A stretch of DNA of 64,000 nucleotides from Chromera velia (taxonomy: Eukaryota > Sar > Chromeraceae), in assembly GCA_018398765.1 (NCBI GenBank), contig JAHBMJ010003830.1:1-64000 (forward strand). The letters run 5' to 3'. Positions 3,086 to 29,907 of this stretch are shown here, in pieces. The position numbers and the translations under genes were made by a program. Below the pieces are notes generated by a model. That model saw nothing but the letters and a program-made list of their open reading frames with translations. It had not been told where the DNA came from and did not search any database. Position 1 is the stretch's first letter. Every line of letters starts with the position of its first letter.

Positions 3086-3410
3086 TATAAGAGGCATACG
3101 AGGCTCATAAGTAACAGTAGCTTCTGGAAGAGAGTACTCTAACGCTACTATAAGCCTTATCAAAGTCTACATAGTTCTGAGGGAGAAGTCAGTAAGTCTG
3201 TTAGTCAAACCTCATGCGATGACTTTTGAAATCAGACCCACTCTTATGCTTGATCTACTGATTGCATCACTGTGCATGCTCATATATTGATCAGTCATTA
3301 TACACGCGCACCCGCGAGCTATGCCGTTCTCATGCAGGCCCGGCCCGAGCTAAGCGATGCTAATTTTAATTAAGTGCTCCACAAGCCCAGACTTCCTGGC
3401 AATCACCTCA
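3086..3410. repeat. Left copy of 325-bp direct repeat
   Basis: Near-identical to 12475-12799 (about 20 differences by eye, all transitions). The pair brackets the copia element at 5521-12320. They may be LTRs of an older element or two copies of a dispersed repeat: ends are tataagaggc and aatcacctca, not a clean TG/CA pair, and I find no target duplication outside them. Confidence 0.7.
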
Positions 3411-5515
3411 CACATGCCCACCCACCAGACCAACATCCACGCTTGGTTCAAATTCAAGCATGCCCCTCACACATGCTCGCTCACAGGGTGGGTGGGTAGG
3501 AAAATCCACCCAACAAGTAATTTCAGACACTCTAACTAATGACTTTTGCCTGAGACTCTCCTTGTGCTAGTCTCCTCTCGGTTCGACATCGATCCGTACT
3601 TCTGCGATCTCATCTGAGGGCATCTCTAAGATGGCATACAAAAGGCGTTCAAAGCTTCCCAAGCACGCACAAGCGAGATTAAAGATTCATTCACGTGGTT
3701 TTCGCATCCAATGCATCGCAAACATAAGGCATTCATGCGTGCGACTGTCTCAGAGGACTCCAGTGATTTTTGACTGGATGCACTCACTCTCTCTGTCCAG
3801 AGTCTTCCCATTCAGAGTCATTGAAAGGACTCACTTAATCACTGATATTCACTGGGAGACTTTACGACAGCACGTGCAGTGCCTAGCCCACAATACACAC
3901 GTAGACAGGGGATAGACTCGAGTTACTAGACGTCCTTTTCCCTTCTTTTGTCTTCTTTTGACCGAGTAGGTATCGCGTAATGCAGCCAGCCATAAATCTA
4001 GGTGGCAGACAAAATAGGGCCACTCTTGTATACGCTCTGGGCGCTCCCCAAGCAACGCACACACACTCAGTTTCTCTCATATAAAGCGATCGCAGACAGA
4101 GTATAAGAAGCTCAACTGCATGTACTCAGAAGACTCGAGGCTTTGAAAGCTCTGTGGAAGACTGCACGCTAACTGAGCATGACAGTCGTCTCAGAGGTTA
4201 CTAACAAAACACCATCCAGTCAGACAGAAAGCAGAAAGCACACACTCCTAAAAATCACTCGAAGTGTGCCCTTTGACTGCAAAAATCTCAGTGAAGCTCT
4301 CTTCTTTCTTTTCATATAAACCAACACAGATCGACACAATCCTTCATTCCCGGCAACAGACCGAGCTCTCACGTTCCGCGTGAATGGTCATTGCCCGCTA
4401 CCCTTGGATGCTGCACAGCTCACCGCAGCCTGGCCAGCTACAGGGCCAGAGAACTGCACAACATCTTAAACAGTCCGACCGAAGTCAAACGCAGTGCACG
4501 CCACTCTCGAAAACAGCAGAACATTGGAGATCTAAGCTGTCAATCATTCACCTTCCTCTCCTATCTTTCTTTCCTTCTCTTCTTTGGTTGCAGAGTGTCT
4601 GATTCACTTTGCTTTGCTCCCAACCACTTTCTCTTTCTTTTCTCTATGATGTCCTCCCATGCCCAGACGAATAGAGGGAAAGGTCAGAGAATAGATAAAA
4701 AGAAAACATATTCACTCTCTTAGTCCCTGTCTCTCTCCTCTTTCTTTTATTCTTCTTTTACTTTCTTTTCTCCCCAACTATCTCCCCTCCCCATTCATTT
4801 TTCATAAACAGAGAAAGAAAACAGTCAGAGAGATGTAAAGAGACAGAAACATTCATTCACAAACAAACCTCTACACCACACTCACTCTCACTTCCCTCAA
4901 GCATACTCTGATGAGTCTCCCTCTCTTCTTCCATCTCCAACCCCCACTGCAAACAAAAATCTGCCTAGAAGTCTGCAGCCTCCAAAGTCTTCTTCCAACT
5001 TGGAAGCCCTTCATAACTGCTCCGCCGTCGAGTGACACAGCCGCGGTGCCCTCATGGCACTATTATGTGTGATTAGCATGTGGCACTCGAGTTCCAGAGC
5101 TTCTTCACTCCAGTAATCAGACTGAGAGTAGAGATCCTTCCTCAGTCAAGTCTCCCCCTCTTAATGTATGCATTATTCTCTCTATTTACAAGGGAAAAAC
5201 ATCTCTGTTCTCTTCAAATGGAAGCTCCTATCCTCTTTGGGGCACTTTCTCTGTGGGCAACAGTTGCTCTGATCGATGACGTCACCAGAGGTTAATATCT
5301 TTCTCCTTGATCTTCTCCCTCACTTCTCCTTCATTTCAACTCCAGTTCCTTCTCCTTCTACCCTGGTATGTTTTTCAACTCTTGCTCTCTCACCGCAAGC
5401 GGCAGAAAACAGAAACATGCCTGGAAAGTCTTCAGCTCCTCATCTTCCTCGAGAACTCCACAACATTCAAGATAAAACGAAACAACATATCGGAGCTGAA
5501 AAATTTTCAATCTGT
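3411..5515. other. Non-coding stretch between direct repeat and copia element
   Basis: Only short open frames without protein-like composition. From about 4540 to 5440 it is strongly pyrimidine-biased on the plus strand. If the 325-bp repeats are LTRs, this is the remnant of the internal region of that older element; no coding domain is visible to prove it. Confidence 0.45.
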
Positions 5516-5520
5516 CCTAA
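5516..5520. repeat. Target-site duplication of copia element, left
   Basis: CCTAA, repeated exactly at 12321-12325 just outside the other LTR. This fixes the ends of the insertion at 5521 and 12320. Confidence 0.85.
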
Positions 5521-5770
5521 TGAAAAGTACTAGGCTCTAGCGTAGAAGAGAACTTACTATAGGAGGATTCAAATCATTCATACGGAGAGGACTAATAAGA
5601 AGGAGAATGTCTTCCTTCTTATCAATCAGTCTATTTGATTCGTATTCAATCATGCTTCAATCAATATGCGATCACTATTCCATAAATCCATGTGGCACGC
5701 CCGCCCCGCATATCTCAATAAGATACGGCGGCGGGTCTGGTGGCGGGCACCTCCATATTGAGCCCTTACA
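5521..5770 (-). repeat. Copia element 3' LTR
   Basis: 250 bp, TG...CA at its ends in both orientations. It matches 12079-12320. The inner flank on the element side has a short G-run (caggggg on the minus strand) in the polypurine-tract position. Confidence 0.9.
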
Positions 5771-6368
5771 TGCAGTCACCCCCTGATCATGAAAACAGAG
5801 AACGATCACTCAAGGGCGGAGAAAGTGCACCTTCTTCGCAAAATCAATGACTTTCCGTCTTGCACCTGATTTGACAGCAGTCGATCGATCACGAGGGACG
5901 TACTGAGTTCCCCTGTCTTTTGAGAGCTTGAGTTTTGTCTGTCTGTCCGCACGCATGACGTTGGTCGGGCATCACAATGTTTTTGCTCTCATTGCCCTAA
6001 GTTTTTGCCGAACAAACCGAAGCATGCCTTGAAGTACCCTCAAAAAGCCTTCCTATGACCCTATGGTCTGTCAATCAAACTCCGGGCTTTGGCAGGCGCC
6101 AGGGCTTTGACGATAGAAAGCTCATTCTTTCTAGTATGCAATATCGTCAAGGCTCTGGTAACAGAAAGCTAATTCTTTCTAGTATGGAATATACCTCTAG
6201 TCCATTGTAGCTTAAAAATATTATAACCTAATTTAATCTAGTTTAACCTAGTTTTAAAATATTTTAATACTTTCTTATAGTATCTGCTATAATTAACTTT
6301 AATATATAAAATAACAAAAAAAAAATATTGATTTTAATCAGTTTGAATCTGTCAGTCTTAGTCAGTCT

Positions 6369-6689
6369 TCATTTAGGAATTCTAGATCCACGGACTCTGT
6401 GCGCAGCAAGGCGATAGTCATCGTCATCATCATCAGACTCTGTAGCCCCCCCTCCTTCACTGCCACTATATTCGCTCGTTGCCCGGGCAAACAAAGTAGC
6501 CTTTGCTTTCGCCTTGTTTTTTGCCTTAGCCTTTGCTTTTGCTTTCGCTTTTCCTTTAGAATTAAAGAACTCTGAAACTGACTCCGCAAGGGCCGCATCT
6601 TCAAGGAAGTCCGACATAGCGATTCGCAAACGAGCATCAAAAGGCAGGCTGGACATTTTGGGAAAAGAAAAGTACACAGACAGTGTCAT
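6369..6689 (-). CDS. Extra open frame between copia RNase H and 3' LTR
   Basis: A 106-codon frame inside the copia element, in the space where most copia elements have no gene. It is predicted to make a small two-faced protein: a mixed N-terminal third, a run of alternating Lys-Ala around residues 48-65, then an acidic Asp run and a basic end. No family recognised. It could be a genuine accessory frame or a low-complexity by-product. As part of a retrotransposon fossil it is only noted here. Confidence 0.35.
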   Translation of the reverse strand: MTLSVYFSFPKMSSLPFDARLRIAMSDFLEDAALAESVSEFFNSKGKAKAKAKAKAKNKAKAKATLFARATSEYSGSEGGGATESDDDDDDYRLAAHRVRGSRIPK

Positions 6690-6869
6690 GATCAGATTGA
6701 ATTCGCCAGCCTAAGGGTAGGTGCTGACCATAGCGGACCGACATACAGTAACAAACCAGAAGACCGAGACGTTTTTCAGACAGTTTTTGCACCTTTGTGC
6801 ATGCATGCATTAATACGTACAACTGCAAAAGCCACATGTATGTGGGCTTTGAGGCGGCACGTATGGTCG

Positions 6870-6975
6870 GGCTTTGGTAGGCCTGCGCCTTCGGCATGGT
6901 CGGGCTTTGGCATGGCCGCGCCTTCGGCGTGGTCGGGCTTTGGTAGCCGGGCGCCTTCGGTATCCGGGTTTTGAT
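6870..6975. repeat. 33-bp minisatellite inside copia 3' region
   Basis: About three copies of a unit containing tggtcgggctttgg and cgccttcgg, lying just downstream of the RNase H region of the element. Confidence 0.65.
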
Positions 6976-6987
6976 GGCCGCTCCGGA

Positions 6988-7422
6988 TCAATCATAGGAA
7001 GCCTTCTTGGGGGTACCTTGAAGACGAGGCTCAGATCTTACCTCTCCTGTCTCCAACTGTTCCATCAAAAGAGCAGAGTCAGTCATAAATTCGATCGGGA
7101 CCTTCTTCTGCCACAGAGCCTTAGCAAACGACTTCCACGCATACGCTTTCTTCACTGTCTCATGCTGCGCACACAGTTCAGAAGACGTACTGGAATTCAA
7201 GACTCTCTTAATCTGTTTGGACTTCCATGTAAAGAGCTTGTTCTCTCGCATGGATCCAATCAACTCGCTCTGATCTACAAGGAACGCCTCATACCCTGCC
7301 CTCCCTTCTCCTCGAGAAAGAGAAAAGGAACCGTCGTAAAAGTTAACGATCTTGGGATTATGGCAGGGAGTGAAAACAAGAGGCCGTTCCGTTTCTTGAG
7401 CATACAAAAGGAGACGTAGCAC
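6988..7422 (-). pseudogene. Copia RNase H region (fossil)
   Basis: C-terminal RNase H part of the element's pol. The block IVNFYDGSFS carries the first catalytic Asp context, and TSSELCAQHETVKKAYAWK fits the helical part seen in copia RNase H. Part of the broken element at 5521-12320. Confidence 0.75.
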
Positions 7423-7533
7423 CCCCTCAACCTTCTCTGTAGAAGGCTGAGTGGACCATCGGGACAGCTTGCTGAAGAGAAAAGAGATGGAAGGAAGAGT
7501 GCGAACAACCCACCCCGTAACCCCTGTGCATTT

Positions 7534-8592
7534 CTACATTAACGGAATGAGATCCTCCAACACTTCTCCCTCTTCAGGAGGCTCAAAAAGAGATGCATTC
7601 AATCTCCCTCCAAGCAACTTCTTCTCATCCATTTCAATTGAGTCAAGGTAGGCTTTCTGTTCGATTTCGTACCCCTCACGCGTGCGAGTGAGAGTCATTC
7701 CCACATACTCGAAACTCTCTCCTTCTTTCAACAACTCAGGCTCGTCCATCTTGAGCCTTTTCTGAATGGGAGCAAAGTGAATGAGTGGATCGGCAGCAAA
7801 GATAAGCAAATCATCCATATGCATCAGTATGATTGCAATGATCTCTCCTTTCTCATCCTTCTTCACAAACACACTCTCTCTCAGCTCTTCCTACCCTTCC
7901 TCCTTTGCCATCTTCCTGAAGCTCTGAGTGTATAGACGAGGGGCATCCTTGAGTCCATACATCACTTTATTCAAACAAAAGACCGACCCTGCTTTTATCC
8001 ACTTAGGCAGACCTGCGGGAAGTTTGTCGGGCAACCAAACATACACTTCATCCTTCACTTCAGCAGTCAGAAATGCAGTTCGAACATCCGACTTTGCGCA
8101 CCCCCATCCCTTTGTTGCCGCAAATGAAAGTACAAGCAAGACAGACCATCAATCGGCCGTCCCTGAGTATGTTTGCAGGTCCTTCCTATCGTCTTAGAAT
8201 CCCTTCATAACCAGACGCGCTTTTGCGACTCTCTTTCCCCCTTTTAGTTTCCAAGTCAGGACCCATCGACACTTCATGACTTTCCTGCCTTTGGGGACAC
8301 GCACCCCCCGACGGAAGACCGTTTCATCCAGGAAACGCTGCAGCTCATCAAGCATTCCTTTCTCATGACTGCCACTCTCAACCTCTTTATTGGTTGCATC
8401 AATGTGTCCTTTTCGAGGATTCACATGACTCATCATTTTTTTGACTACAGTCGGATCAACGGGAACGATCCGAGGGAGGGGACGTCTCTTCTTCTCCTTT
8501 TCCGCAATCATGCGAGCGAGCTCTTCTTTCAATTTCCCTAGACGCTCTCTCAGCGCTTCTTCCTTCTCTTCATCATCTTGTGCAGCTTGCAC
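7534..8592 (-). pseudogene. Copia reverse transcriptase region (fossil)
   Basis: Pieces read as copia reverse transcriptase in the expected order: the entry block KCRWVLTWKLKGGKRVAKAR, then a palm segment with KSDVRTAFL and LNKVMYGLKDAPRLY, then the catalytic-loop block HMDDLLIF. The aspartate pair in the last block matches the family's YVDD-type motif. Fossil, not a working gene. Confidence 0.85.
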
Positions 8593-8920
8593 TTCCTCTC
8601 TACCTTCCTGTGCACGAAGCGCATTCCCATCGCTGTCTACCCCCTAATCCACCTCAACGTCTTCAGCGACAGGGGATGGAGGCACACCCCCTCCATCTTC
8701 TCTTTCCTCTCTTTTTGGCAGCCGTTTGGCCCCCTTTCTGGGCTTTGAGTCCCTCCGTGCTTCCTCTCTTTCCTCTTTTTCCTCTTCTTCTCCCCCCTCC
8801 TGCTGTGCATGCATCTCGAGCTGACCTGTCTGAATTTATATGCCTGCAGGGCTCTGAAGGGGAAAAGAGAAAGGCTGTGTACTTCCTATGTCCAACGATA
8901 CAGAAGTTGCAACATAGTGC

Positions 8921-10669
8921 TCACACAGTCAAGCAGCCGTGTAAGAGACAGAAAGAAAGAGCAGATGCGAAAGAAGAAGAGAACTTTGCAGGAGGACGAT
9001 CTCCCGCATCGTAAGGCACCTCCTCAACATCAACATCCGAGAAGGCCCCATCATCCACCTCATCTGACCCCCTCCCCTCACCCCCCAATCCCAGAGACAC
9101 CCCAGAAAGAGAAGGAGAAGACGAGTAAGAAGAAAAGGAATCATTCATATTCTCACCCTGCCTCCCCTCCTTTTTCGATTCCCCAGGAGAAAAGAGAGAA
9201 GAGTCAAACAGTTTACGATCTATACCTCTCCACGTGACAAGTGAGACAGAAGAGGGAGGAACACGAATGGGCTTCCAACTATTGTTCTTTCTAATTATTA
9301 CCTTCACCACATTTGAATTTTCGATTCCTCCAAAGAAGCCCTCAACACCATGCACAGGCTCTTCATTTTTCTTTCTCGAACGGGCATTGTATACACATAG
9401 ACGATCATCAACAATGATGGAGGGAATCTCTGCTGCACGTTCTTCTCCAAAGAAAACACAAACAGTCGAGACGCAATTGTTCAATTCTTGAACCACCCCC
9501 TGGAATAGCAACTTTTCGGTGTAGGGGAGAAGATCGGTTTGTCTCCTCACCTTCCGAAGGAGACGCTTCACTGTCCGATTTGCTCTTTCCCCCTGGCCCT
9601 GATATTGAGGGATGTAGTCTGCCCCCCTCCGGTGAAAAATTCTCTCTTCCTGACAAAAGTGATCGTACTGCCCTTTCTTGTCCCCCGAGAACTTTTTTCC
9701 ATTGTCTGTTTGTACAACCTCCATCTTTCTACAGCGAGGCTCAAAGCAACGGACGACTGAACAGAGATGTCTGACTACCTGTGCCTTACATCCAAGAATC
9801 TGCCCATCCATCAGTCTTCCTTTTCTTTTAGTTAGAAGACTTGCCGGCACCCCCCCAGATAAAAAGAGAAGATCTTGTGTCCAATGAGATCCTAATCTCT
9901 CTGGCACCCCCCCTCCCTGCCTGGCTGGTATCTGTCTCATCTCTGCATTGACCTCTCTGCACTCCCTGCAGTCAATTCTTTTTCTGCACTCTTCTCCCAT
10001 CACTCGGTGTGCCATGCCTTTCTCTCTGAAGCATGCATAGAGCCGTCTCCCTGTCGCATGCCCAAACCTACCATGCCACAAATTCAACTCTGCAGGGGAC
10101 ATGTGCTCTGTGCATTGCTGTACCCACAAGATGGAAAGCTTCGCCTTGTCGGGTATCCGCGCCCTGGCAGCCTCATCGGTGCCTGAAGAAACAAAAGAAG
10201 AAGAATCTAAAACAATGGTTAGGTACACACAGTCCTTTCTGTCTGCACTCAAATAAGATTCAGAGGGAGGAGAAGAAGACGATGGAGAGAGAACACGCAC
10301 TACATGTACCCCATCTCTCTCATACAAACGAGCTCTCACTGCACCACCCCCCTTGCCAGGAAATTTAACCCAAAAGGGAGGGTCCACTTTCTGCATCCTG
10401 CAACCCCTTACTGAGAGGAGAGATACAGGGACTAACGATTTGAAGGCCCCTCTCAGAAGAGGACGAACAGGCTCTCCGTCCATCCCCTCAAGCAGAGGTG
10501 ATGCCCCCACCCTAGCTTCTACCTCCTCAGCACACACCATCTCTCCCCCTGAGGCCTCCTCATACCTGAACTCACAGGGCCTACGGGAAACAATCGAGTC
10601 CTCAAGATCTCCCCCAATCAAATGCCGACTGCAATCAGTATTGGCAACAGGGGACTTCTTTCTCCACAC
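8921..10669 (-). pseudogene. Copia protease-integrase region (fossil)
   Basis: Longest open frame of the element. Near the start is a protease-like TDCSRHLIGGD. A GAG-pre-integrase block follows (ELNLWHGRFGHA), then an HHCC-like zinc segment and an integrase core with WTQDLLF, VQTDNGKKF and GQGERANRTVKRLL in DDE spacing. An acidic Ser-rich tail follows. Part of the broken element. Confidence 0.88.
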
Positions 10670-10849
10670 CTATCTTGACTCCCCTCTGCTCCCCGCTGCC
10701 CCCACACGCTCCTTCCTTTCCTCCTTTCCGCCTGTGTCATCGTCATCACTGAGGGGGGCGAAAGAATTTTCGAGGCAGATCCCCCCCCTAACTTGCACAC
10801 CCTTCTCAAAGCCCGAGCGTGGCCAGGCGCTGCTGCGCCCCCCCCCTCC

Positions 10850-12032
10850 GGTCCCCTGCCCCCCATTCTTCTTGTCCCAATGCCCCTTCTTCCCACATGC
10901 CCTGCAGGGGGAAGCACCGTTGAGGGTGGCTCTGCAGGTGCTGACGTGCCTATTTCCACACGTCTGACAGACAGGAGGGGAGTCTTATGAGCCGGAGGAG
11001 CTCTGCTCTCCCCTATTCACCCCCTCAGCCGCCCTGTTTGCCCTCTCCACACCCTGTGAACCCCTCTCCCTCTCCTACTCCTGCAGCTCTGTCTGGGGGC
11101 TGTCTGTCAGAGCGAATTTCTTAAGGATCTTTCGCAGCATCGAAAATTTGATCGAATTTCAAATTGATGCGGGAAAGAGAGGGGTTATTGAGTTCGGCAA
11201 CGTTGTCTGACTCCTTAAACACTTCGTCGGGAAGAGCACGAAGGACCTCCTTGTACTGGACTTGAGTGAACGAATTCAGGACGTTGGGGACGAGACCGTC
11301 TTCATCAATATGGTACTTCTCTTTGGACACGTCACGAAGAAGCTCATCCAGCCTCTTGTGAATGGTGTAGTAGGAGAAAACGAGACCAGAGCGAACAACG
11401 GGGAAGCCGTCTTTGTCCATCTTGTCACAATGATACGGGAAGAACTGAATGCGAAGGGCGATCTTGCTTTCAACCTTGAAGGTGAGAAGACCGTACTCCT
11501 TTCGGAGTGTGCGGGGAATGTTCTCGGCAAGCACACCCCAATCCAGCAATCTCTGGATGTCACGGTTCACCTCCAAGTTCTCGAGCTTGTCGAAGCAGAC
11601 CTTCATTTTATTCCTCCAACTCTCGTCCGAAACAAAGCGTTCTCTGGGTAGCTGGTCGTTACAAAAGTTCTGCCACTTCTGCCCCCACTCCTTAATGTGC
11701 TGCTTGTTCTGCATCTGAGGCACAGCACCGAAATCAACTTTCACGTAGCAGTAGGAAGAAGAAGCGGACACAGAAGGGGCCTGTTCCTCATCCTCTGAAG
11801 GAGAGTCAACACGAACAATAGGAGACGGGGGTTATGAGAGTGACGGAGCGAGAGTAGCCATCCCTTCTTTAATTCTTCTCTGCACTAAGGAATCAATCAG
11901 GGCCTGCAAATCGCTTTTGGAGAGAACAATCATCTCTCTTAAACCCGTTGGTACACCGGTTGCAGCCGCTGGAGCCTCAGCTGCCTGCTGCTCTTTCTGG
12001 AGTCTTCTCTTCTCTGCACGAGTCCGCACCAT
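10850..12032 (-). pseudogene. Copia Gag region with zinc knuckle (fossil)
   Basis: Contains the element's first open frame near 12032 (VRTRAEKRRLQKEQQAAEAP, Glu/Ala-rich), a longer middle part (about 11121-11771) of Gag-like helical composition, and a CRACGKKGHWDKKN zinc-knuckle block around 10860-10905. Fossil. Confidence 0.75.
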
Positions 12033-12078
12033 TTTTGAAAATTCCGGTTTGACTCAATCAGATCGTGACACACTGGAC

Positions 12079-12320
12079 TGAAAGGTACTAGGCTCTAGCA
12101 TAGAAAAGAACTTACTATAGGAGGATTCAAATCATTTATACGGAGAGGACTGATAAGAAGGAGAATGTCTTCCTTTTTATCAATCAGTCTGTTTGATTCG
12201 TATTCAATCATGCTTCAATCAACATGCGATCACTATTCCATAAATCCATGCGGCACGCCCGCCCCGCGTATCTCAATAAGATGCGGCGGCAGCTCGGCAC
12301 CTCTATATTGAGCCCTTACA
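12079..12320 (-). repeat. Copia element 5' LTR
   Basis: 242 bp, same ends and order as 5521-5770. Followed outside by the duplication CCTAA at 12321-12325. Confidence 0.9.
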
Positions 12321-12474
12321 CCTAAGCTGTGAAACCTCTGGCTGCCACCGCACTCTACATGGCCTCGTGTTTCACGTAGCAAGCCCACTTGCCTTCGACA
12401 ATCTTCATTCTTTCATCTCAAGAGATCTCACCACACTGTCTGCCCCTATGCAACCGAAAGCTCTGCTAATCAAC

Positions 12475-12799
12475 TATAAGAGGCGTACGGGGCTCATAAG
12501 TAACAGTAGCTTCTGGAAGAGAGTACTCTAATGCTACTATAAGCCTTGTCAAAGTCTACATAGTTCTGAGGGAGAAGTCAGTAAGTCTGTCAGTCAAACC
12601 TCATACGATGACTTTTGGAATCAGACCCACTCTTATGCTTGATCTACTGATTGCATCACTGTGCATGCTCATATATCGATCAGTCATTATACGCGCGTGC
12701 CCGCAAACTATGCTGTTCTCATGCAGGCCCGGCCCGAGCTAAGCAATACTAATTCTAATTAAGTGCCCCACAAGCCTAGACTTCTTGGCAATCACCTCA
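12475..12799. repeat. Right copy of 325-bp direct repeat
   Basis: Partner of 3086-3410. Only about 150 bases separate it from the copia 5' LTR, so the copia insertion landed near this end of the bracketed interval. Confidence 0.7.
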
Positions 12800-13112: not shown

Positions 13113-13270
13113 TTCATATTCATCCGGAAGCAGGCTAAGCTGCGGTGGTTTGCTCCTTTTGTTTACAACTGCATGTATGGGTTGCCATTTGTCTCTAGTT
13201 TCAGAGACCCTAGGCTTAACCACAATTAAGTAAGTAAGTAAGTAAGTAAATAAGTAAATAAGTAAGTATC
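13113..13270 (+). repeat. Short dispersed repeat with (TAAG)n tail, copy 1
   Basis: About 110-bp unit (gaagcaggctaagctgcgg, acaactgcatgta, ctaggcttaaccaca) ending in (aagt)n. A second copy is at 25421-25560. Like the TAA-tailed unit at 2247, it looks SINE-like: short, non-coding, with a microsatellite 3' end. Confidence 0.6.
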
Positions 13271-13364
13271 TAGAATGATATATGATTATTAAATAAGACT
13301 TCAATAAGTTATTAAATCGTACATATATGTAAGTATTTATACATCTGAATTCAATTGAAGTTCC

Positions 13365-14361: not shown

Positions 14362-14369
14362 TACCGGAC

Positions 14370-16890: not shown

Positions 16891-16891
16891 A

Positions 16892-16895
16892 CATT
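16892..16895. repeat. 4-bp target duplication of fold-back element
   Basis: CATT, repeated at 20389-20392 immediately outside the other arm. Confidence 0.55.
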
Positions 16896-19800
16896 AACAG
16901 AGTGGACTCCAAAGTAGGACTTAGTGGAATTCAAAGTGACTTTTAAATTTACTATATTCTAGCTTCATTATAAAGTAAAACTAGGTTACTTAAAGCAATC
17001 TAAAGTTTTTTAGAGCATTTAAAATCGCTACTTCTGTGCGAATCTGCTCAAATGTGCTCAAAAGACTGGTTGATTAGCTAAAGTGATGATAATGATGATG
17101 ATTGAGGGTTAAATCCTAGATTTAGCAACGCCAAATCCCAAGCCACTAGCAAGGCTTTGAGGATAACCCAGAGCACACATTCATGGGGGGGGGGGATGAG
17201 GAAGCCTGCATGCCAATCGGATCGATTCGCCTCAACTTGCCTTATCGACAGAATGGACCTTCTTGAGACAGTCGGCTATAGCTTTGGAACCGCTTTTAGG
17301 CAGAATTATGCACCTGCAAAGAAATACACAGGCACAACACTAATGGATATGCTCAACAACAACGTTTAGCGCCGCTAATCAAGTATAAAGAATTGCTTTT
17401 TCTGTAAGGGAAACAGTGCAGGAAGGAGGGCTTCACAGCTAGGCTGGTCAGACTGGACAGGAAGCGGTCGGCAGGGGTCAGAGAGGATTCTGAAGAACAG
17501 AGCATAGAGACAACATAATTCTATTTACGAAGAACTCACACTACACGGCGTAAAAGCTTGCAAATTGTTCTACGTATGTCAATGAGAAACTGTGAAAAAG
17601 AAGGACAGGTCTGTAGGTAGATCCAGATGTTCAGAGGGAGACCAGTACGGAGTGCTACAAATGAGAAAGGATGAGCAAGAAAGGAACACTTACGTCAGGA
17701 CAGTATGGACCGCTTTGAAAGACTGACACATACGGAGTAAGTGGAAGACATTCAAATGTATGAAAGCTGAGCGATTGGTCTAGGTGAAAAAATGTCTGGC
17801 ACGACTGAGAGCTGTGCAAAGCTTCAGAAGAGGCGGTCAAAAAATGGAGGCTCCAGCAGACTTTCCGTCGACCCTCTCTTACTGACCTCCCTTGTGCGTT
17901 TCTGTCAAGCTCCTAGCAGAACAAAGAAGCTGAATGCTAAGCAAATCATCATACGAAGCGAGAGAGCAAGCCGCGCTTCCTTAACTGACCTGCAGGTGTT
18001 CCCAAGTCTCCGTCCACTAACACCTGCAAACACGGAGGGACAGGCGTTCACGCTTTGTGCAGTCAAAGAAGCACTTCTGTTCAGCTTATTCTGCACGCAC
18101 AAGGTTTCAAGGATAAAACCAAGGGCCTAAGAAGCAGCGGGTCTAGACAGGCTGACCTGGAGGTTGACCCCGGGGCTCCCAAGACTATGACCTGCAAGGA
18201 AAGAGTAAGGAGAGCGATGAAGGCAGCAGTACTTTAATACCTAAATAAGGCTGGCAGCCCTTCCCCGCTTGAACAGGAGGAGAAGCAGCAAGCAGGAAGA
18301 CGTTAGAAACAAGTTCAAGACGGCTGGTGTCCACTAGACCCACCTCCAAGCTGTTTTTCATGCCGATCCGAGGTGACCCAGCAACTGTTGTTGTAGCCGT
18401 CTCCTCCAGAGCCCCGAAAGTACACTTCCGAAAAAAAAGTCAAACCGAGAAAACGCTCTGTCAGACATCTTCTAAAACCATCAGAAGACATCTGACAGAG
18501 CATTTTTTGTGGCAACATTTCTGTGGGAAAAGTCCGTTTGCTCAGAGGTTCAGAACTCCACAGTTTTGAACCTGTGGACCTTCAAGACGGACAAGAGACT
18601 TCAGACCCGATTATTGGCCGATTATTGTTCTGTATCTGTTTTGGGTCACGGACCTCGAGTTAGGTCGGACACCCCCCCCCCTCCGAGGTTCAGAAGTCCG
18701 CACTTCTGAACCTTGGGCCAGGGGGGTCAAACCCCCCTGCCGCCAGGTCCAGACATGGGCTTATCGTGGGTCCAGGAGGCGCCGCCACAGGGCCAGAGGG
18801 GGTGGCGGCACCCTGCCCCTTCGACGCACGCAGCCGACTTTGCCTCTGTTGGCCAATAATCGGATCTGAAGTCTCTTGTCCGTCTTGAAGGTCCACAGGT
18901 TCAAAACTGCGGAGTTCTGAACCTCTGAGCAAACGGACTTTTCCCACAGAAATGTTGCCACAAAAAATGCTCTGTCAGATGTTTTCTGATGGTTTTAGAA
19001 GATGTCTGACAGAGCGTTTTCTCGGTTTGACTTTTTTTTCGGGAGTGCACTTTCGGGGCTCTGGAGGAGACGGCTACAACAACAGTTGCTGGGTCACCTC
19101 GGGTCGGCACAAAGTGGAGCTTGGAGGTGGGTCTAGTGGACACCAGCCGTTTTAATCTTATTTCTAACGTCTTCCTGCTTGCTGCTTCTCCTCCTGTTCA
19201 AGCGGGGAAGGGCTGCCAGCCTTATCTAAGTATTAAAGTACTGCTGCTTTCATCGCTCTCCTTACTCTTTCCTTGCAGGTCACAGTCTTGGGAGCCCCGG
19301 GGTCAACCTCCAGGTCAGCCTGTCTAGACCCGCTGCTTCTTAGACCCTTGGTTTTATCCTTAAAACCTTGTGCATGCAGAATAAGCTAGACAGAAGTGCT
19401 TCCTTGACTGCACAAAGCGTGAACGCCTGTCCCTCCGTGTTTGTAGGTGTTGGTGGACGGAGATTTGGGAACATCTGCAGGTCAGTTAAGGAAGCGCGGC
19501 TTGCTCTCTTGCTTTGTATGATGATTTGCTTAGTATTCAGCTTCTTTGTCCTGCTAGGAGCTTGACGAAAACGCACAAGGGAGGTCAGTAAGAGAGGGTC
19601 GATGGAGAGTCTCCATTTTTTGACCGCCTCTTCTGAAGCTTTACATAGCTCTCAGTCGTGCCAGACATTTTTCCACCTAGACCAATCGCTCAGCTTTCAT
19701 GCATTTGAATGTCTTCCACTTACTCCATGTATGTCAGTCTTTCAAAGCGGTCCATACTATCCCGACGCAAGTACTACTTACTCGTTCATCCTTTCTCATT

Positions 19801-20388
19801 TGTGGCACTCCGTACTGGTCTCCCTCTGAACATCTAGATCTACCTACAGACCTGTCTTTCTTTTTTACAGTTTCTCATTGACACATGCAGAATGATTTGC
19901 AAGCTTTTACGCCGTGTAGTGTGAGTTTTTTATGAATAGAATTATGTTGTCTCTGTGCTCTATTCTTCAGAATCCTCTCCGACCCCTGCCGACCGCTTCC
20001 TGTCCAGTCTGTCCAGCCTAGCTATGAAGCCCTCCTTCCTGCACTGTTTCCCTTACAGAAGAGGCAATTCTTTGTACTTGATTAGCGGCGCTAAACGTTG
20101 CTGTTGAGCATATCCATTAGTGTTGTGCCTGTGTATTTCTTTGCAGGTAACATTCACTAACTTCCACGTGCCGCGGTGATCGTAATTTTTCCCTAGCTAA
20201 TCAACCAGTCTTTTGAGCACATTTGAGCAGATTCGCACAGAAGTAACGATTTTAAATGCTCTAAAAAACTTTAGATTGCTTTAAGTAACCTAGTTTTACT
20301 TTATACGACTTTATAATGAAGTTAGAATATAGTAAATTTAAAAGTCACTTTGAATTCTACTAAGTCCTACTTTGGAGTCCACTCTGTT
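16896..20388. mobile_element. Fold-back element with very long inverted arms
   Basis: Two inverted arms, left about 16896-18620 and right about 18850-20388, meet at a central spacer of about 230 bp. Outer ends read AACAGAGTGGACTCC and its complement, flanked by CATT on both sides, so it looks like one mobile unit. The arms are clearly related along their length but diverged, and the left arm has about 230 bases (roughly 17082-17310) replaced by about 40 in the right arm. Smaller hairpins are nested inside: gctctgtcagacatcttct against its complement in each arm, and aggttcagaa/ttctgaacct pairs near 18547, 18692 and 18899. No transposase frame is seen. A transcript through it would fold into long double-stranded RNA. 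Confidence 0.8.
18621..18849. repeat. Central spacer of fold-back element with own hairpin
   Basis: GC-richer than the arms. It contains a near-perfect hairpin at about 18691-18717 (aggttcagaagt / acttctgaacct) and C- and G-runs. The same hairpin word appears in both arms, so the spacer shares ancestry with the arm tips. Confidence 0.6.
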
Positions 20389-20784
20389 CATTATAGACAG
20401 ACCTATCTTCTTTCCTTCCTATAGTATCTAAAAGTAATATAAAAATGACTAACATTGGGTGATATCGGCCGATATTAGCTTCTTTCTCATTCATTTAATG
20501 CTTCTAGATGTATACTTGAAAAAGCTCTTTCAACCAGTTAAAACATCCGATGTTCCGATGTCGATATCAGCCAACACTAGCCCTTTTTTCAGCCGACACT
20601 TTCGTAACGTGGCGGCGGGTCATACAGATGTGCATGAAACAATTAGAAACCGCCGCCAGACCTTAACCGGCTCAGAAATTTCGAAGGGAAAAGAAACAGC
20701 CCTCTGTTCCTTTTTTCCTCCCGGACTTGAACCAATGAACCTAAGAGACGTTAGTTCACCTCTCTAGACTCTTTTTAGCTACTT

Positions 20785-22428: not shown

Positions 22429-23443
22429 ACGAAAAGGGAGGGCCAGCGGGGTGTTAGCAAAAGTAGGAGGAGTAAAGAGAAGAAAAAGGAAGACCAGAGT
22501 GAAGTGCGACAGTAGTAAAAGAAAAAAATGGGAAGAAGAAAACACCAAATTTAAGTAACAAAGGAAATTTTTTAAAGAGCCAAACGTTGTAAAACTAGTA
22601 TGAAAGATCAAGCAGAAATGATCTATGGATTTGAAGAGAAAAGGGTAGTAAAGAAATGTTGAAGAGAAATAAAATTTTTAATGTGAACATATGTGAACAA
22701 GAGAACCAGATGGAACCAGGAGAAACAAACCAGAGATGGAAAAAGAAGTCCACAACCCTCACTTACAGATAGGCAGAATTGATCACGCGAACACGCGGGG
22801 AATGAAAGGTACTAGAATTTTTATTGGCCCGGCGAGGCATCAGCTAGGATCAGTGGCCTAGTCTGGAGAGGCATGCGCTCGCAGCAGCGTGAGCGTAAGA
22901 GACGGACAGTACCTATACTTAGGCAAGATGCATACTGGCCCGACGCAGGACCAGAGAGACACTAAAGAGAACATATACAGGAGGAGCTAGTTTGCATGCA
23001 TGCTTGCAACATATGCACGCATGCAGTGCAACAGCTATACACGAGAGTGGGAGATAGTGCACAGCTACAAAGTGGAGGCAGCTGCATGGACACGTACCAC
23101 TTTTATACTTTTCATGAGAGCCTGGCTCGAAGTCGGTCACTCAGTATCCTGAACTCGTCCACCAAAGCGGCAGGTCGTGGACGCGTCTTCATGCAAGCGC
23201 GCTTTCTTTTTTCGCCAAGTACACCTTCTGAAGCCGTCAGTTGATGAATGATTGAAACAGGCTTCCGGGCTTCCCGTGCATGAGGAATTCTCCTCTGAGA
23301 TCTGATGACCAGAGCAATAAACTAAGGCGCCATTGCTCTCTTGCAGCACAGAGCTGCTCCTCGTACAGAATACAAACTGACAACGATCCAGCTGAGGTTC
23401 TACAGGAAGAAGGTCAAAGAAAAGGACCAGGCCTTCCGGCGGG

Positions 23444-24948
23444 ATGTCTCTGTCACGTGCAGGAGTGGCACTGACGCACAAGCACGTGAAGGGCGCCCCC
23501 CAGGCGGGATTTGTTCTTCGGAAGTTCCTGCACGGGTTCTTTGGGGGCGTCCTCGTGTCTGAGATGAATGCTTTCGCTTCTCATTGGTAGGCGAGATGAC
23601 GCTTACGTTCCTCTTATCTTGCGCCTGGTCTTACAGTGTTTTGTCCCCTTCTGTAAAGCACAAGCGGATGAAACCGGAAAAGGACGGCCTCGCATCAGCA
23701 CAGAGACTTGCAAACGGGGGGAAAGAAAAAATTCAATGGAGAAGTAGACGGAACGCTCATCCTGTACACATGCAGTCTGACCAACACATCAGTTGGACTT
23801 GCATCCAGGAGGCAATACGGACGTTGAACCCAGTCATACAAGGAAGAGAAAAACAGATATTCAGAAGGCAGTATATAGGGAGGAGAGTCAGACCGCGGAA
23901 AAAGGCAGCGGTGGCGCTGGACAGGAAACGGGCGCGCTGCGACAGTAGCCTAACATGTAGACAGGAATCGATCGGCACAGGCAGGCAGGCGCACAGGCAC
24001 ACGGACGGGCAGGCAGGGAGAGAGACAGAAACGCCTTCTCAAAAGGAGAGAAAGATGGAACGAGGGCCCAGTCATTGATGTGCACTCTCACTGACGCAAC
24101 AGTCAACGCATTTCAAAGTCACACACTCATAATTTGCATCTCTCTGCTTTTTATGGTGCAGGGCGAGTCACCATGTATATCCAAACGCTCCCTGGAACTC
24201 GCACGTGACTGTTCACCACGACTCCGACCACCCGGACGGTGCGGGTGTGTTCGTGATCCCGTTCAGGACCTACTTTGCGGGATGGACTCAGGACACAGCA
24301 GTGCAGGGAGGCCTTGCTCTGAACTCTGCGTGGTTCTGCGCGTTCTCTCTGTCCGGCAGGTAAGTGTGTTCTGCGGATGAGCAAGGTCCTATTCATGCAG
24401 TTTTGTCGATTCGTGAAGAAAGGTGTTGTTCTGTGGGCACGACGATAGCCATCATCGTGCACTAGCACAGACCGTTGTGGGAGGGCCGAAGCGGTCGTCT
24501 GTGTAAGCATCGCAGCGTTGTCGCAGAAACAACCCCAATTGATTTTGTGGCTCTTCTTTTGCGTGCACTGCCATTGGCCTGTGCATTTCCTCAATGCCTT
24601 GTGATTAGTTCTTTTGGCCCCTTTTGATTCTGGGAAATCCGAATGCCTTAAAGCTCTGTTTGATGCTGCGAATGCCCCTCTTCTCTTCTGCCTTTCAGGG
24701 GGCGCCGCGTTCCTTTTCATTTGTTCGGAATGGCCCTCGGGTTGGTGTTCCACTTCTTTCTGACCACCTGGCTGCACTTTGCGCACCACCAGGGCAGCGT
24801 AAAGGGCATAGCCGGACTGTCTGCTCTGTCTGAACACCACGAGCTCCATCATAGAAGAATGGGAGAAGGGAACTACAGCCTGGGGTTCCTGCCTCCTGTT
24901 TTTGACTGGGCCTTTGGATGCTTGAGGTGGACAGTCGGAAGTCCGTGA
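23444..24948 (+). CDS. Fatty-acid hydroxylase superfamily protein, three exons
   Basis: Membrane di-iron enzyme of the fatty-acid hydroxylase/sterol desaturase superfamily, which uses oxygen to hydroxylate or desaturate a lipid in the ER membrane. My model has exons 23444-23586, 24162-24359 and 24699-24948 (591 nt, 196 residues) with GT-AG introns and matching phases; the first junction completes a Trp codon. Histidine clusters occur in the expected order: SHWASHHVYPN, VHHDSDHPDG, then HHELHHRR near the C-terminus followed by NYSLGFLPPVFDWAFG, which matches the family's terminal box. Hydrophobic segments lie at LHGFFGGVLV, GLALNSAWFCAFSL and GMALGLVFHFFLTTWL. The protein is shorter than typical 250-350 residue members. 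The ATG at 23444 is the first in frame after a stop, but an upstream exon joining at the AG near 23462 is possible. Substrate cannot be told. Confidence 0.75.
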
Positions 24949-25420
24949 TCGAGAATCGTGGTTTAATTTTCAAAGAGGTTTCTGAACCTTTTGAATTGAG
25001 TTTCAAAATGTTGAGAAGAAGTTTTGCAATATTCTGAGAGTGTACTGCGTTGTGTTTTGAAGATGACGGCGACAGTTTCTCTATATAAAATATGTAACTT
25101 GAAATTCGATGATTTCGATCATTCAATGGTTGATTGCATGATCGATTGATTGATTTGTAAATCTGACGCGTGTATGCCCTTTTCATGGATACCGCACGTC
25201 GAACGTTCGGCATTGGGGCAGGAGGTCAATCCTTCAAGCCTAGCTTCAAGCATTACTAGTCTAATCTTATCTTATTCCTAGTTTTATCATATCCTAAATA
25301 TATTACTAAACCGTCTAAACGGTGTAAGCCGACCTTTAGCAGTGGATCGCGGGCTTAGCCGGGGGTAAAACCCGGAACATCAACTTGAATGCTATGCTAT
25401 GCTATATTAATCCTTATATA

Positions 25421-25560
25421 ATGTTCATGCGGAAGCAGGCTAAGCTGCGGCGGCTTGCTCCTTTTGCTTACAACTGCATGCATGGGTTGCCACTTGTCTG
25501 TGGTTTCGGAGACTCTAGGCTTAACCACAGTTAAGTATAGTACTGTTAAAGTAAGGTAAG
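25421..25560 (+). repeat. Short dispersed repeat with (TAAG)n tail, copy 2
   Basis: Same unit as 13113-13270 in the same orientation. The tail here is decayed to ttaagtatagtactg and taaggtaagta. Confidence 0.6.
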
Positions 25561-26042
25561 TATAAGCTAGGGTATAAGTTAGGGTATAAGTTAATTTTAC
25601 ATAGTCACTTTAAGAGTTACTGTACTGGAACTATCATGTGTTACAAGGAGAATTTCTAGAATTTTTTATATCACAATGATTTGTGAAACAATAACTGTGA
25701 TTTTAAAAACTTTTGACTGATTCAATTACATCACACTTATGTGTAAAAAAAAAGTTGTAGATCACGGCTTGACACGCGTTGCGGGGCAGCGTCATAGCTG
25801 CTGTGCCAGTGGGCTGCGCGGACTGCATACGCATATGCACGTATGAACAAAGCATGCATGCATGACCTTGCGAAAAAAAACGTACAGCTGTGTGCAAACT
25901 CTTAGGCAAACTCGTGCAAACTACCCTGCCAAAAATGTTAGAAAAGTGATAAAAAAGTGATAGAAAAGTTGTTAGAAACGTTGTAGAAAAGTGATAGAAA
26001 AATGAACCGCTGCGCGCCCCTTCTTTGCTCTTTTCCAGTGTT

Positions 26043-26165
26043 GAGTGAGTGAGTGAGTGAGTCAGTGAGTGAGGTGAGTGGGTGGGTGTCACACTGAGTG
26101 GATGGGGGGAGTAAAGGGGGTAAGTGAATGAGTGAGTGAGGTCAGTGATCGAGTGAATGAGGTGA
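26043..26165. repeat. (GAGT)n-type minisatellite
   Basis: Degenerate run of gagt/gagtgagg words in an AT-rich non-coding stretch. Confidence 0.75.
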
Positions 26166-26873
26166 GTCTGAACTTCAACGACTCTGAAGATTTCAAACTA
26201 GTCACTTTGAAAGTTTAGGATCACTTCAATTTGTGTTTGATAATTTTATCATACCTAACTTACTCTAACTATTTCATCTAATTTCATCACACCTATTGTA
26301 ACACATTTATTTGTGTCACTAGTACTAGTGTATAGCCTAAGGGTATTGTATCATAATTTGAATTGTTTCACACTATAGTTTCAGTGTAAGAGTTACTAAA
26401 AGTTTTTCTCAGAAACCTCTGGTTACTAGAATTCCATGACTTTTTACTGGTTACTTTAGGCCTCTCATCACCTAGTACGAAAGTTGAGTTATACTATAAT
26501 TTTACTCTTTTCTAGACCATAATAATCTAACCATTCTGAAAGACTTTTTGGGACCTTTCCTGCGTGCCTCCATAAAGTTTCTTCCCGTCTCTATCTGTAA
26601 ATATCAAAGTCTACTGAGTTTTTACTGACTAATCTAGTGACTAATAGTGCTTAGACAATGTTCTATAGTTATTATAAGACACGTTCCTGATCAGTCATTG
26701 ATTTAAACACGGTATTATGACGGACGAACAAGAAGTTGTCTGCAAGAAAGTGGTCCGCCTCTGACTCCGCAAGGGAGTGAACACCCATAGAGAGTATGAA
26801 GAAGGGGGGCTCACTCATAAGGACTTCGCAGCACTCCCAGTAGATGTTTTTATTCAGAAATTCGGCGTAGGGA

Positions 26874-27112
26874 TGTAGACCCTCAGTTAGTCGTAGCTGG
26901 GATCAGCTCCTATATACGGATAAAAGTTCTGTCATGCATGGGTAGTTCTGCTATCTCTGTTCTATAAGACAAACAACGGATGTCTTTATTGAGACTGCAT
27001 GCTGCACAATTAATTCCCGGCCATGCAGCATGCATGCATACGCTCTATGCACGTTATGTGCGCGTACTTCATTTTATCCTGACACAACTGCTTGTCAGAC
27101 CTTCACAACGCT
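26874..27112 (-). repeat. Left terminal repeat of the 26874-29907 element
   Basis: Matches 29656-29907. Shared landmarks: tcgtagctggratcagctcc, gactgcatgctgcacaatta and caactgcttgtcagacctt. Confidence 0.75.
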
Positions 27113-29655
27113 ACGTGCCCCCTCCCTTCAGAGTAGCGTCCTGCCACTTCATCTGCATGAGGCAATTTGATCTCAAAAAGGCACGGTCCATACATGTTCA
27201 CGGTCTTGAATCTATGTAAATCACCTCAAGTCATTTTCTCTCTCCTCCAGCCTTTACTACTGATTAGGCATATGACGACTGATTCTAAAGTAGGCTCTCT
27301 TTTCTCACATGAAAAATGGAATGAATAATCGTTCACAGGATTTGAATCTGGAATGCAGCAGCACATAAGATGAACTGTTTTTCTAATTGGCTAATCCGTA
27401 GCCAATGCAGTTACCTCTACCTACTTCAACTCTTGTTCTCTCTCTTTTCCAATCGATCTGAATGTTTACCTTGTTTCAGCCATCATGCTGTGCAAACAGA
27501 GTCTTCCCTTTCTGGCCGTCACTCACTGTCAACTCTTCTTCTCTTTCTCTCTATGTTTTTTCTCCTTACTGCATGTCACCTGCTCTTCTGTCTCCTCCCT
27601 TCTTCTCACTCAGACCGTGCCCTCTTCCTCCAACGCCGCGTCCCGCGGCTGAGCAAAGGTATGTAATGATTGAAACGATCACCTAAACAGTCACAAAAAA
27701 AAAAAAAATCCTGCCGAGCGTGGACAGACATTCCCTTATCAAACCAAACGACAACCACTGCAAGAATTCGATCCCCCAGGGTAGACAAACAGGCCAAGAC
27801 GACTATTCAAACAAAAAGAACGAAGATAAACGGACGAGATCAGACAGTCATGTAACAAGACTGAACAGAGCGGAACAGAGACACACGCCGTCTCCATGCC
27901 TGCATGATCTGATTCACTTACTACGTTGCACCCCTATCAATTCTCTCTTCCCTGCATGATGCCTTTTGCTTACTCTCTTACTTAGTAAATGGGCATTCCC
28001 ATCACATATCGTACCTAAAATTCCTGGAAAAGTGCCTGGACAGACGGAAGCAATTTTTCCACTCTATACTCTATGTGTTTGGTGTATGCTCTTGATCGGA
28101 TTGATGGATGCTGCTAATTCTCCTTGGCGGGGCAACGTTTCTTAGTGGAGGCGTGGAACTCTCAAGCCCCCTTGTTTCTCGCGCATACCTCCCATTCTGA
28201 CACATCTACGGAGGCAAATGGAGCCAAATCTATGAAGAGCAGTCTTCGAAGCTAGCTACGAAGCTAGCAAAGGTTCTCTAAGGCGAGACACTGACTGATT
28301 GCCAAAACCCTTCGCCTCTGTCTGCTCCTGTTGAATTGTTTTGATTTTAGCCCTCTGCGTCTCTTGTTTTTTCCACTCTTTTTGCGTCTCTTTCCTCTCT
28401 TTACGGCCTTGAAGGACAGCTGCTCTTCCCATCTCGTTTTGCACTGTAGATCCTCTATGCAAACCCGTGCGCACACAAACGCTCTCCCTAGCCCTGCGTC
28501 TACATAGCTACCTTCTGAGGGGAACTACTGAGAGTCGTCTGGTGATCTCCTGCTCGAGTTTGTCTGATTGTATACAACTGTGCTTGGTGTTTAGCTTCTT
28601 TTTTTCTCTCTCTCTTCCTCTGCTGCTTTGCGGTCCTCCTTTTGGCTCTCCCCGGTTTCTCCTACATTTACAAAGTGGAGTGCAGAACACCAAGCAACAT
28701 AGGAACTACCTCTTCGTTCTATGAATGTCCCTTGGCTGAAGCAATTACAGGGGGAAAATTAGATGGACCTAATATAAACTGCATCTCCAGCTGCATCTCT
28801 CCACTTGTGGGATGGTGCATATTCACGTCCTCCTGGTCTGTCGGTCGACCAGTGTATGAAGACGGGTCTTCTGTCTCTCTCACTTCTTGTTGGTCATTCC
28901 CTGATGCTCCTACGAATGTTTTTGGGGGCAGAGCACGCAGACCACTCACTTTTGTCTCAACATACTCTTTCTGACTGGGTGGGGCCTCAGGAATGGACGC
29001 CACAGGCCTCCACCCACTTCTTCTGCACGGGCTCTTCTCTTTCTTCCCATCTGCCTGCGATGATAGCAACGCGGACAGATGATCTGCATTTTTGTTTTTC
29101 TTTCCCGAAGATGTCATCAACTTTGATGCATTCTCTTCATTCGTCTTGCTTGATTGCTTGTGGGCTCAGGCTCTTCCCGTCATCCTTTTGCTTCTGCGAG
29201 TTTTTTTCTTCGTGACACCCTCTGTATTAGTGGAGGGCGGTGTTGTTGAAACAGAAAAGTTGGGCTTCTACCGGGACTGCAGAGTCTGTAAGTTACCCCC
29301 TGCAGCAACAAAGAGCTTCTCTGCAAGCTCTTTTCCTTTGTTGAGAAGAGATTGACCGTTCTTGTGCACTTTGAGAAAAGAGACATGCTTGAATTTCTCG
29401 AGTCTCTCGACAGCAAGAACGAACTCCCCGAAGCGATCAGGCACCAACATTGAAACAAACTTTCAAGAGAAAAGAAAGACGTGGTTTTCTACTGATTACA
29501 GACTTCAAGATGTGGCTACGTGCAGGCGATAAAAATTAATCCGTAACTTTGTATTTGCACAGCAGAAGATGGACTATTCACATGTTCAATCGATGAAACG
29601 AGAGCACGCAAACCCACTGAGGCCGGTTCAGGCTCTCGCTACTACATAGTAATTA

Positions 29656-29907
29656 TATAGGCCCTCAGCTAATCGTAGCTGGAATCAGCTCCTATATACA
29701 GATAAAGGTTCTGTCATATATGGGTAGTTCTGCTATCTCTATTCTATAAGATAAACAATGGATGTCTTCATTGAGACTGCATGCTGCACAATTAATTCCC
29801 GGCCATGCAGCATGTATACATGTGCTCTACGCACGTTATACATACGTACTCTAGCACGTACTTCATTTTATTCTGACACAACTGCTTGTCAGACCTTCAT
29901 AACACTA
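29656..29907 (-). repeat. Right terminal repeat of the 26874-29907 element
   Basis: Partner of 26874-27112, with an extra 11-12 bases near 29857. Confidence 0.75.

Follow-up and report, generated by a model that had tools for sequence, protein, structure and literature searches.

Repeat pairs in the window

The window is a stretch of 64,000 nucleotides from the chromerid alga Chromera velia (assembly GCA_018398765.1, contig JAHBMJ010003830.1, positions 1 to 64,000, forward strand). It contains several pairs of long terminal repeats (LTRs) and other repeats, listed here with their differences as transitions/transversions:

3086..3410, + strand: LTR 1 of family A, a short LTR element; 93.8% identity to 12475-12799
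5521..5770, + strand: LTR 1 of nested element B, with TG...CA ends
12079..12320, + strand: LTR 2 of nested element B; 13/1 to LTR 1, with one gap
12475..12799, + strand: LTR 2 of family A, pairing with 3086..3410
13116..13236, + strand: short repeat, pair E with 25421-25542; 10/2
17312..18619, + strand: inverted-repeat arm 1 of dispersed family F; 70/6 to the arm 20148-18851
18851..20148, - strand: inverted-repeat arm 2 of family F, pairing with 17312..18619
26873..27116, + strand: LTR-like repeat 1 of family C; 24/0 to 29655-29910
29655..29910, + strand: LTR-like repeat 2 of family C, pairing with 26873..27116
34242..34461, + strand: LTR 1 of family D; 16/1 to 38489-38702
38489..38702, + strand: LTR 2 of family D, pairing with 34242..34461

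The two family A LTRs differ by 20 transitions and no transversion, just as a first-pass annotation of this DNA had estimated by eye for these 325-bp repeats. After polarising, all 20 differences are C:G>T:A changes, ten in each LTR. The LTRs are spaced by 9389 bp; without the roughly 6.8 kb taken up by nested element B, their distance is about 2.6 kb, which matches 10 of the 11 other family A pairs used (2.4-2.7 kb; the exception, on contig C1353, measures 1.2 kb). The best 40 of 69 candidate matches to this LTR in its own genome were scored.

Element B is flanked on both sides by a 5-bp target duplication (CCTAA), and all 13 transitions between its LTRs polarise to C:G>T:A, the single transversion being G>C. 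The first-pass annotation had given about 13 differences, all transitions; the number of transitions stands, but one transversion and a gap have to be added. Its label "copia" has no family match behind it, as a Pfam search of ten window reading frames returned only a weak match to SRP_TPR_like, below the cut-off. The repeats of family C were rightly described as differing by transitions only (24/0 with MAFFT, 22/0 with BLAST), while the one indel reported there proved to be two gaps; all 24 polarised differences are C:G>T:A. For family D the single transversion was confirmed and the extent of the LTR was corrected: positions 34139-34241, previously included, lie outside the LTR match and instead match 35583-35688. 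In the genome, the element B LTR and the family C repeat each have at least 41 matches (one of them a fragment in either case), the family D LTR has 13, some partial, and at least 40 full or near-full copies of family F were scored at 89-100% identity, the window copy included.

Summed over these six pairs, there are 153 transitions and 10 transversions. The remaining pairs in the window vary (2272/2976, 7/1; 34139/35583, 13/2; 20790/30782, 22/15; 17089/31745, 21/6).

Spectrum, strand and context of the changes

We collected LTR pairs across the genome from a set of LTR copies that for families A-C is a subset of their matches; pairs were defined as copies on the same contig and strand at an element-like spacing; a target duplication was seen only for element B of the window. 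Copies on C1935 (11.5 kb apart) and on C3527 (0.6 kb apart, 21/1) were not counted as pairs. The 28 pairs, including window pair A, show 298 transitions and 23 transversions (bootstrap 95% interval of the ratio 7.9-25.1; heterogeneity between pairs p 0.15). The skew beyond neutral expectation that had been noticed in the window is shared by LTR pairs elsewhere in the genome (binomial test against two thirds transitions, p = 5e-29). When the 27 pairs without window pair A were polarised against other copies, with 26 of 301 changes left out as ambiguous, 239 of 275 changes were C:G>T:A (C>T 114, G>A 125, A>G 13, T>C 3, transversions 20). Because the LTRs of one element are identical when they are copied at insertion, these differences have arisen after integration.

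Alignments of LTR copies gave a weaker skew. They contain non-identical copies that cover at least 90% of the query, and the family C pair on C2240 is absent. Singletons over four families amount to 146:50, with just 40:25 in family A, and ratios over all pairs of copies range from 3.6 to 8.3. A non-reversible maximum-likelihood model for families A-C assigns rates of 3.3-4.4 to C>T/G>A versus 1.1-1.7 to A>G/T>C.

The largest set of changes comes from a pileup of transposable element (TE) copies, restricted to singletons, for which a single copy deviates in a column of 6 copies or more. With overlapping loci merged it contains 1649 changes, namely 1261 C:G>T:A, 173 A:T>G:C and 215 transversions (1434:215); an unmerged version with 1354 events gives the same picture. 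Per thousand, the rates are 16.68 for C>T and 16.48 for G>A, 2.13 for T>C and 2.54 for A>G, and 0.5-1.0 for each type of transversion, so that C:G>T:A exceeds the reverse transition about seven times. The two strands are also balanced within each LTR family (C>T/G>A 39/47 in A, 27/35 in B, 32/33 in C and 24/23 in D). Neighbouring changes fall on the same strand in 275 of 484 cases within segments versus 2062 of 3875 across segments (p 0.13). The number of C:G>T:A changes per segment correlates with that of other changes (rho 0.55, 76 segments).

The C>T rate depends little on sequence context. By 3' base it is 19.5 per thousand for CA, 18.3 for CG, 15.1 for CT and 13.5 for CC, and by 5' base 19.7 for CC, 18.5 for TC, 14.5 for AC and 13.3 for GC, the latter a weak pyrimidine preference only. 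These single-neighbour effects are significant (p 9e-6 and p 4e-7, respectively), though at most about 1.5-fold. The classes CG, CHG and CHH have rates of 18.3, 14.7 and 16.7 (three-class test p 0.05), which bears out the earlier remark that changes are not limited to CpG. With a context as flat as this, the changes carry no CpG signature and no CpA signature.

Duplications outside transposable elements

A genic duplication, of which one copy lies in the window, served as non-TE control; it was compared with its duplicate on C3674 (locus L104) in two blocks, for which no strand is given:

53583..54826: control block 1; 27 transitions/18 transversions
54963..56300: control block 2; 36 transitions/29 transversions

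The 2.6 kb compared, at 90-93% identity, are part of one duplication and yield 110 unpolarised differences, 63:47, which differs strongly from the LTR pairs (Fisher p 4.6e-16); outside its two long reading frames the count is 30:29. A third copy is found on C3762. Equal skew outside TEs, which the first-pass annotation had named as evidence against its proposal, was looked for and not seen in this duplication.

Tandem arrays gave 77:50, or 74:48 once an array present twice (window 35884-36003 and L069) is counted once. Within the window, the tandem repeats 782/970, 795/930 and 41637/41795 show 15/0, 19/6 and 4/4; the first two are alternative alignments of a non-TE coding repeat (782-1108, within a reading frame), which gives 6/5 as an array. 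Tandem repeats within other loci range widely (L004 13/5, L007 10/6, L010 32/31, L017 15/44, L021 2/6, L024 54/48 as counted in the longest among many overlapping alignments, L035 14/6, L044 84/81, L065 70/28). Some of these may lie in TEs.

The GC content is mixed evidence for a loss of cytosines in TEs. It is as low as 39-40% where TEs are dense, in the bins at 12-16 and 30-34 kb, but reaches 46-53% in bins containing element B and 44-50% in those containing family F, and two bins in the gene-rich half have 44%.

Probable decay of transposable elements by cytosine deamination

We consider it likely, with a probability of about 0.6, that TEs of Chromera velia decay after insertion by deamination of cytosines that would be methylated in CG, CHG and CHH contexts inside silenced elements. 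Inserted TEs would be silenced and their cytosines would carry 5-methylcytosine (5mC) regardless of context; spontaneous deamination would then produce C-to-T changes on either strand, which slowly accumulate. 5mC deaminates directly to T, and T is repaired less well than U. The first-pass annotation had already suggested cytosine deamination in methylated, silenced repeats. The C:G>T:A direction, the strand symmetry and the absence of the skew from the non-TE duplicate agree with this; the methylation and the silencing are what we infer.

A DNMT2-like enzyme may be involved, perhaps guided by Piwi-domain proteins. An exon-by-exon profile search found matches to PF00145 on C3982, C1092 and C675, all DNMT2-like; enzymes of this family are known above all for methylating tRNA. 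Such a search is no proof of a DNA methyltransferase, and it may have missed others. The genome also has SRA-domain matches on C2797 and 20 Piwi-domain matches.

Plain deamination might dispense with the methyl mark: in compact, silent chromatin, unmethylated C would be converted to U more often, or U and T:G mismatches would be repaired worse. This could give the flat context that is seen, and a skew present in TEs and absent from the genic duplicate. With poor repair, however, other types of change should rise too, whereas transversion types stay at 0.5-1.0 per thousand versus 16.6 for C>T, and we regard this explanation as rather unlikely.

The first-pass annotation also offered a RIP-like process, that is, active mutation of duplicated DNA in the sexual cycle. 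C:G>T:A changes on both strands of repeats resemble fungal RIP, although Chromera velia is not a fungus. Every duplication of sufficient length, TE or not, is a target of RIP, and the one control duplicate shows no excess of transitions; duplication alone is therefore not the cause, which argues against RIP. Also against it are the lack of CpA preference, the signature in most fungi, or of another strong dinucleotide preference, the gradual accumulation in step with other changes, and the fact that no RID-type enzyme was recognised among the methyltransferase pieces in the exon-by-exon search. A RIP-like process is accordingly disfavoured and appears improbable. The fungal cases in PMC4352252, in the part of the text available, have their signatures at CpA, CpT or CpG.

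A genome-wide transition bias, in which TEs are not special, might be read from the extreme transition rates of GTR fits, but these cover TE families only. The control duplication disfavours such a bias, as do the tandem arrays. The restriction of the skew to TEs is judged from this one duplication, and the coding repeat that aligns at 15/0 runs counter to it; we nevertheless hold a genome-wide bias to be quite improbable. Editing of element cDNA or RNA by an APOBEC/AID-like cytidine deaminase or by ADAR (the first-pass annotation had named a deaminase process) would explain that changes in retroelements are transitions, but it is hardly credible given the balance of C>T and G>A, the neighbour test without strand-coordinated clusters, the absence of a strong 5' base preference, the rarity of A>G, the post-integration origin of the LTR-pair differences, and the skew of family F, which is not known to be an LTR element.

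Methylation-driven decay is usually expected to be biased to CpG or CHG, while the TEs of Chromera velia are nearly flat. To our knowledge, most 5mC signatures have CpG as the top context, which is not the case here. A close likeness is the cytosine loss centred on TEs in Welwitschia, whose retrotransposons are associated with high methylation, above all in the CHH context, and for which deamination over long times has been proposed (PMC8275611, available part). For Arabidopsis TE families, the available part of a report gives a mean Ti/Tv of 1.2 (PMC4352252), to be set against 298:23 in LTR pairs and 1434:215 in singletons here, although the measures differ in kind, the former being copy-to-consensus. 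In alveolates, DNMT-bearing LINEs of Symbiodinium show a loss of CG that suggests C-to-T mutability of retrotransposons (PMC5890265, in the portion available); that signal is at CG dinucleotides, whereas ours is in all contexts. Plasmodium, another alveolate with a DNMT2-like gene, is reported to have 5mC at 0.13-0.19% of cytosines, its presence being disputed, and the accessible text mentions no TE mutation signature such as that found here (PMC10164579). Entamoeba and Dictyostelium are likewise described, in partly available sources, as protists with DNMT2-linked 5mC.

In summary, TEs decay almost only by C-to-T changes, which the compared gene duplicate does not share, and this has the look of a scar left by chemical silencing. 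From the sequence alone one would predict that in this photosynthetic relative of apicomplexans the TEs are densely methylated at cytosines of any context. Among the papers listed by our literature searches there was no chromerid methylome; as the methyltransferase pieces recognised look DNMT2-like, a single one would bear on the disputed DNMT2-type DNA marking in alveolates. LTR insertion ages calculated from standard substitution rates would be distorted in Chromera velia. It is a speculative and doubtful extension that in chromerid algae several enzymes of the DNMT2 family methylate the cytosines of silenced TEs free of context, that Piwi-domain proteins perhaps guide them and an SRA protein perhaps reads the mark, and that its deamination does the work of RIP slowly and without regard to context. 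If context-free methylation by the DNMT2 family is true, DNA methylation of the DNMT2 type would have left in these elements an evolutionary trace that is unusually clear for a eukaryote.

Elements and repeat pairs of the window

Two of the repeat families belong to LTR-flanked elements, one of which lies within the other:

3086-12799: element A, LTR-flanked, enclosing element B
5521-12320: element B, flanked by a 5-bp target duplication; its LTRs have TG...CA ends

B is nested in A: once B is subtracted, the LTRs of A are about 2.6 kb apart, a spacing shared by 10 of the 11 further A pairs that were used. The LTR divergence of 6.2% (20/325) in A versus 5.8% in B agrees with this. Among the matches listed in the organism's own genome (177.8 Mb, 4040 contigs searched) there are at least 40 for A, at least 41 each for B and C, and 13 for D. 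Domain searches of this genome gave 11 alveolin matches (their control search also had hits in Caulobacter) and 58 chlorophyll-binding matches (control hits in Synechococcus), which indicates a photosynthetic alveolate. For the published Chromera velia assembly, the excerpted text of PMC4501334 gives 193.66 Mb in 5953 scaffolds, with TEs accounting for about 30 Mb. The region 16893-20391 is an inverted-repeat member of dispersed family F, for which 40 copies including this one were scored, and adjacent inverted copies occur on several contigs.

The repeat pairs of the first-pass annotation were correctly placed, apart from small corrections. About 20 differences, all transitions, had been claimed for 3086/12475, and pairwise alignment gives 20 transitions and no transversion (20/0; counts are written in this order throughout). 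For 5521/12079 the 13 transitions were recovered, but a single transversion (13/1) contradicts the claim that all changes are transitions. Substitutions in the pair at 26873/29655 are indeed only transitions (24/0; 22/0 by BLAST), and the one transversion noted among about 18 changes was found in the fourth pair (16/1), for which the start of the first LTR was corrected from 34139 to 34242 (34242/38489). Further pairs are 13116/25421 (10/2), the inverted arms 17312-18619/20148-18851 (70/6), and four weaker pairs (7/1, 13/2, 22/15, 21/6). Three pairs of tandem copies show 15/0, 19/6 and 4/4.

C>T changes after insertion

From 101 loci (292,850 bases), 27 LTR pairs were taken, which show 278/23. 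With pair A of the window added, the count for 28 pairs is 298/23; the bootstrap interval of this ratio is 7.9-25.1, and the test for heterogeneity between pairs gives p 0.15. Both LTRs of an element are identical when copied at insertion, and thus these changes postdate insertion. When the 27 pairs were polarised by other copies, 239 of 275 changes were C>T or G>A, while 16 were A>G or T>C and 20 were transversions; another 26, outside the 275, were ambiguous in polarity. In the window, all changes are C:G>T:A in pair A (20/20, ten per LTR) and in pair C (24/24).

Deduplicated pileup singletons (n=1649) comprise 704 C>T, 557 G>A, 93 A>G, 80 T>C and 215 transversions, corresponding to rates per thousand of 16.68 for C>T and 16.48 for G>A versus 2.1-2.5 for the reverse transitions. 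The changes are, as had been proposed, not confined to CpG: C>T rates per thousand are 18.3 for CG, 14.7 for CHG and 16.7 for CHH, and by 3' neighbour 19.5 (CA), 18.3 (CG), 15.1 (CT) and 13.5 (CC). The context is nearly flat, with small effects that reach significance for single neighbours (p 9e-6, 4e-7); the test over the three methylation classes is borderline (p 0.05). Every LTR family shows a balance of C>T and G>A, and same-strand neighbouring changes are not clearly commoner within segments (275/484) than across them (2062/3875; p 0.13). Over 76 segments, C:G>T:A counts rise with those of the remaining changes (rho 0.55), which steady decay would predict.

A non-reversible ML model gives the same direction, less steeply. 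Singletons from the LTR alignments are also less skewed (146:50 overall, 40:25 in family A), and the ts:tv ratios of all-against-all comparisons in these alignments are lower (3.6-8.3), which we attribute to older subfamily differences, or misaligned ends, being richer in transversions.

Comparison outside the transposable elements

The genic region 50052-56300 is duplicated on another contig (C3674:45101-50751) with about 90% identity. C3762:145020-146760 holds a third, partial copy, and C3251 one that is more distant. In the 2.6 kb compared of the 5.65 kb duplicate, 63/47 were counted (33/18 inside two long reading frames, 30/29 outside); this control covers a portion of one duplication, and its changes are unpolarised. 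An equal skew outside the TEs was thus not found in this one duplication, and the LTR pairs differ strongly from it (Fisher p 4.6e-16). Against this control, the C>T excess is associated with TEs, which argues against a genome-wide bias and also against a process sensing duplication alone.

Tandem arrays in the sequence examined show 77/50, or 74/48 without one array counted twice. A coding minisatellite at 52512-53550, with about six 171-bp units and long reading frames on both strands, has 26/13 between neighbouring units and 14/4 as derived states. The tandem repeat at 782-1108, within a reading frame, has 15/0 or 19/6 by alignment and 6/5 as an array; its outer copies (15 transitions, no transversion) run counter to the other non-TE tandem repeats, and synonymous changes could be the cause. 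In the genic part, 56478-56726 (about 250 bp, 66-77% matches in more than 20 genome places) is an old dispersed repeat. The stretch 45558-46856 on the minus strand, with a weak SRP_TPR_like match below the Pfam cut-off, is possibly an SRP72 gene.

The GC content of 2-kb bins is 39-40% at 12-16 and 30-34 kb, 46-53% and 44-50% in the bins holding elements B and F, 44% at 48-50 and 56-58 kb, and 55-57% at 52-54 and 60-64 kb. This neither strongly supports nor strongly contradicts deamination in silenced TEs.

Candidate machinery and possible causes

A profile search of the genome gave four PF00145 matches over cut-off on three contigs (C3982, C1092, C675). The best structure matches of the translated pieces are DNMT2 or tRNA-C38 methyltransferase (E 4e-28 for locus L102, 3e-25 for L103), with bacterial matches, and for L103 also DNMT1, weaker by far; a short third piece has a weak DNMT2-like match (E 0.02). 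As the search was made exon by exon, it may miss other methyltransferases, and we do not claim DNMT2 to be the only one. An SRA domain on C2797 occurs in two stretches with an intron-sized gap between them, and the Piwi domain has 20 matches on many contigs, 18 of them over cut-off. The open-access literature searched yielded no title on a chromerid methylome, and the excerpted text of PMC9998398 does not mention Chromera.

The main rival is plain deamination combined with poor repair in silent chromatin. RIP, a RIP-like process having been suggested initially, fails on context and on the control duplication, which lacks the excess (63/47). In the excerpted text of PMC4352252, fungal TEs carry C>T changes with CpA, CpT or CpG signatures, and the mean Ti/Tv of Arabidopsis TE families is 1.2; among the titles listed from the open-access literature, none concerns a context-free RIP-like process outside fungi. 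Editing enzymes, the deaminase option of the first-pass annotation, fail on strand symmetry and post-insertion timing.

We propose instead that cytosines are slowly deaminated in silenced TEs of Chromera velia. The cytosines would probably carry a methyl mark in all contexts, and an enzyme, possibly guided by RNA, would be responsible for the mark.
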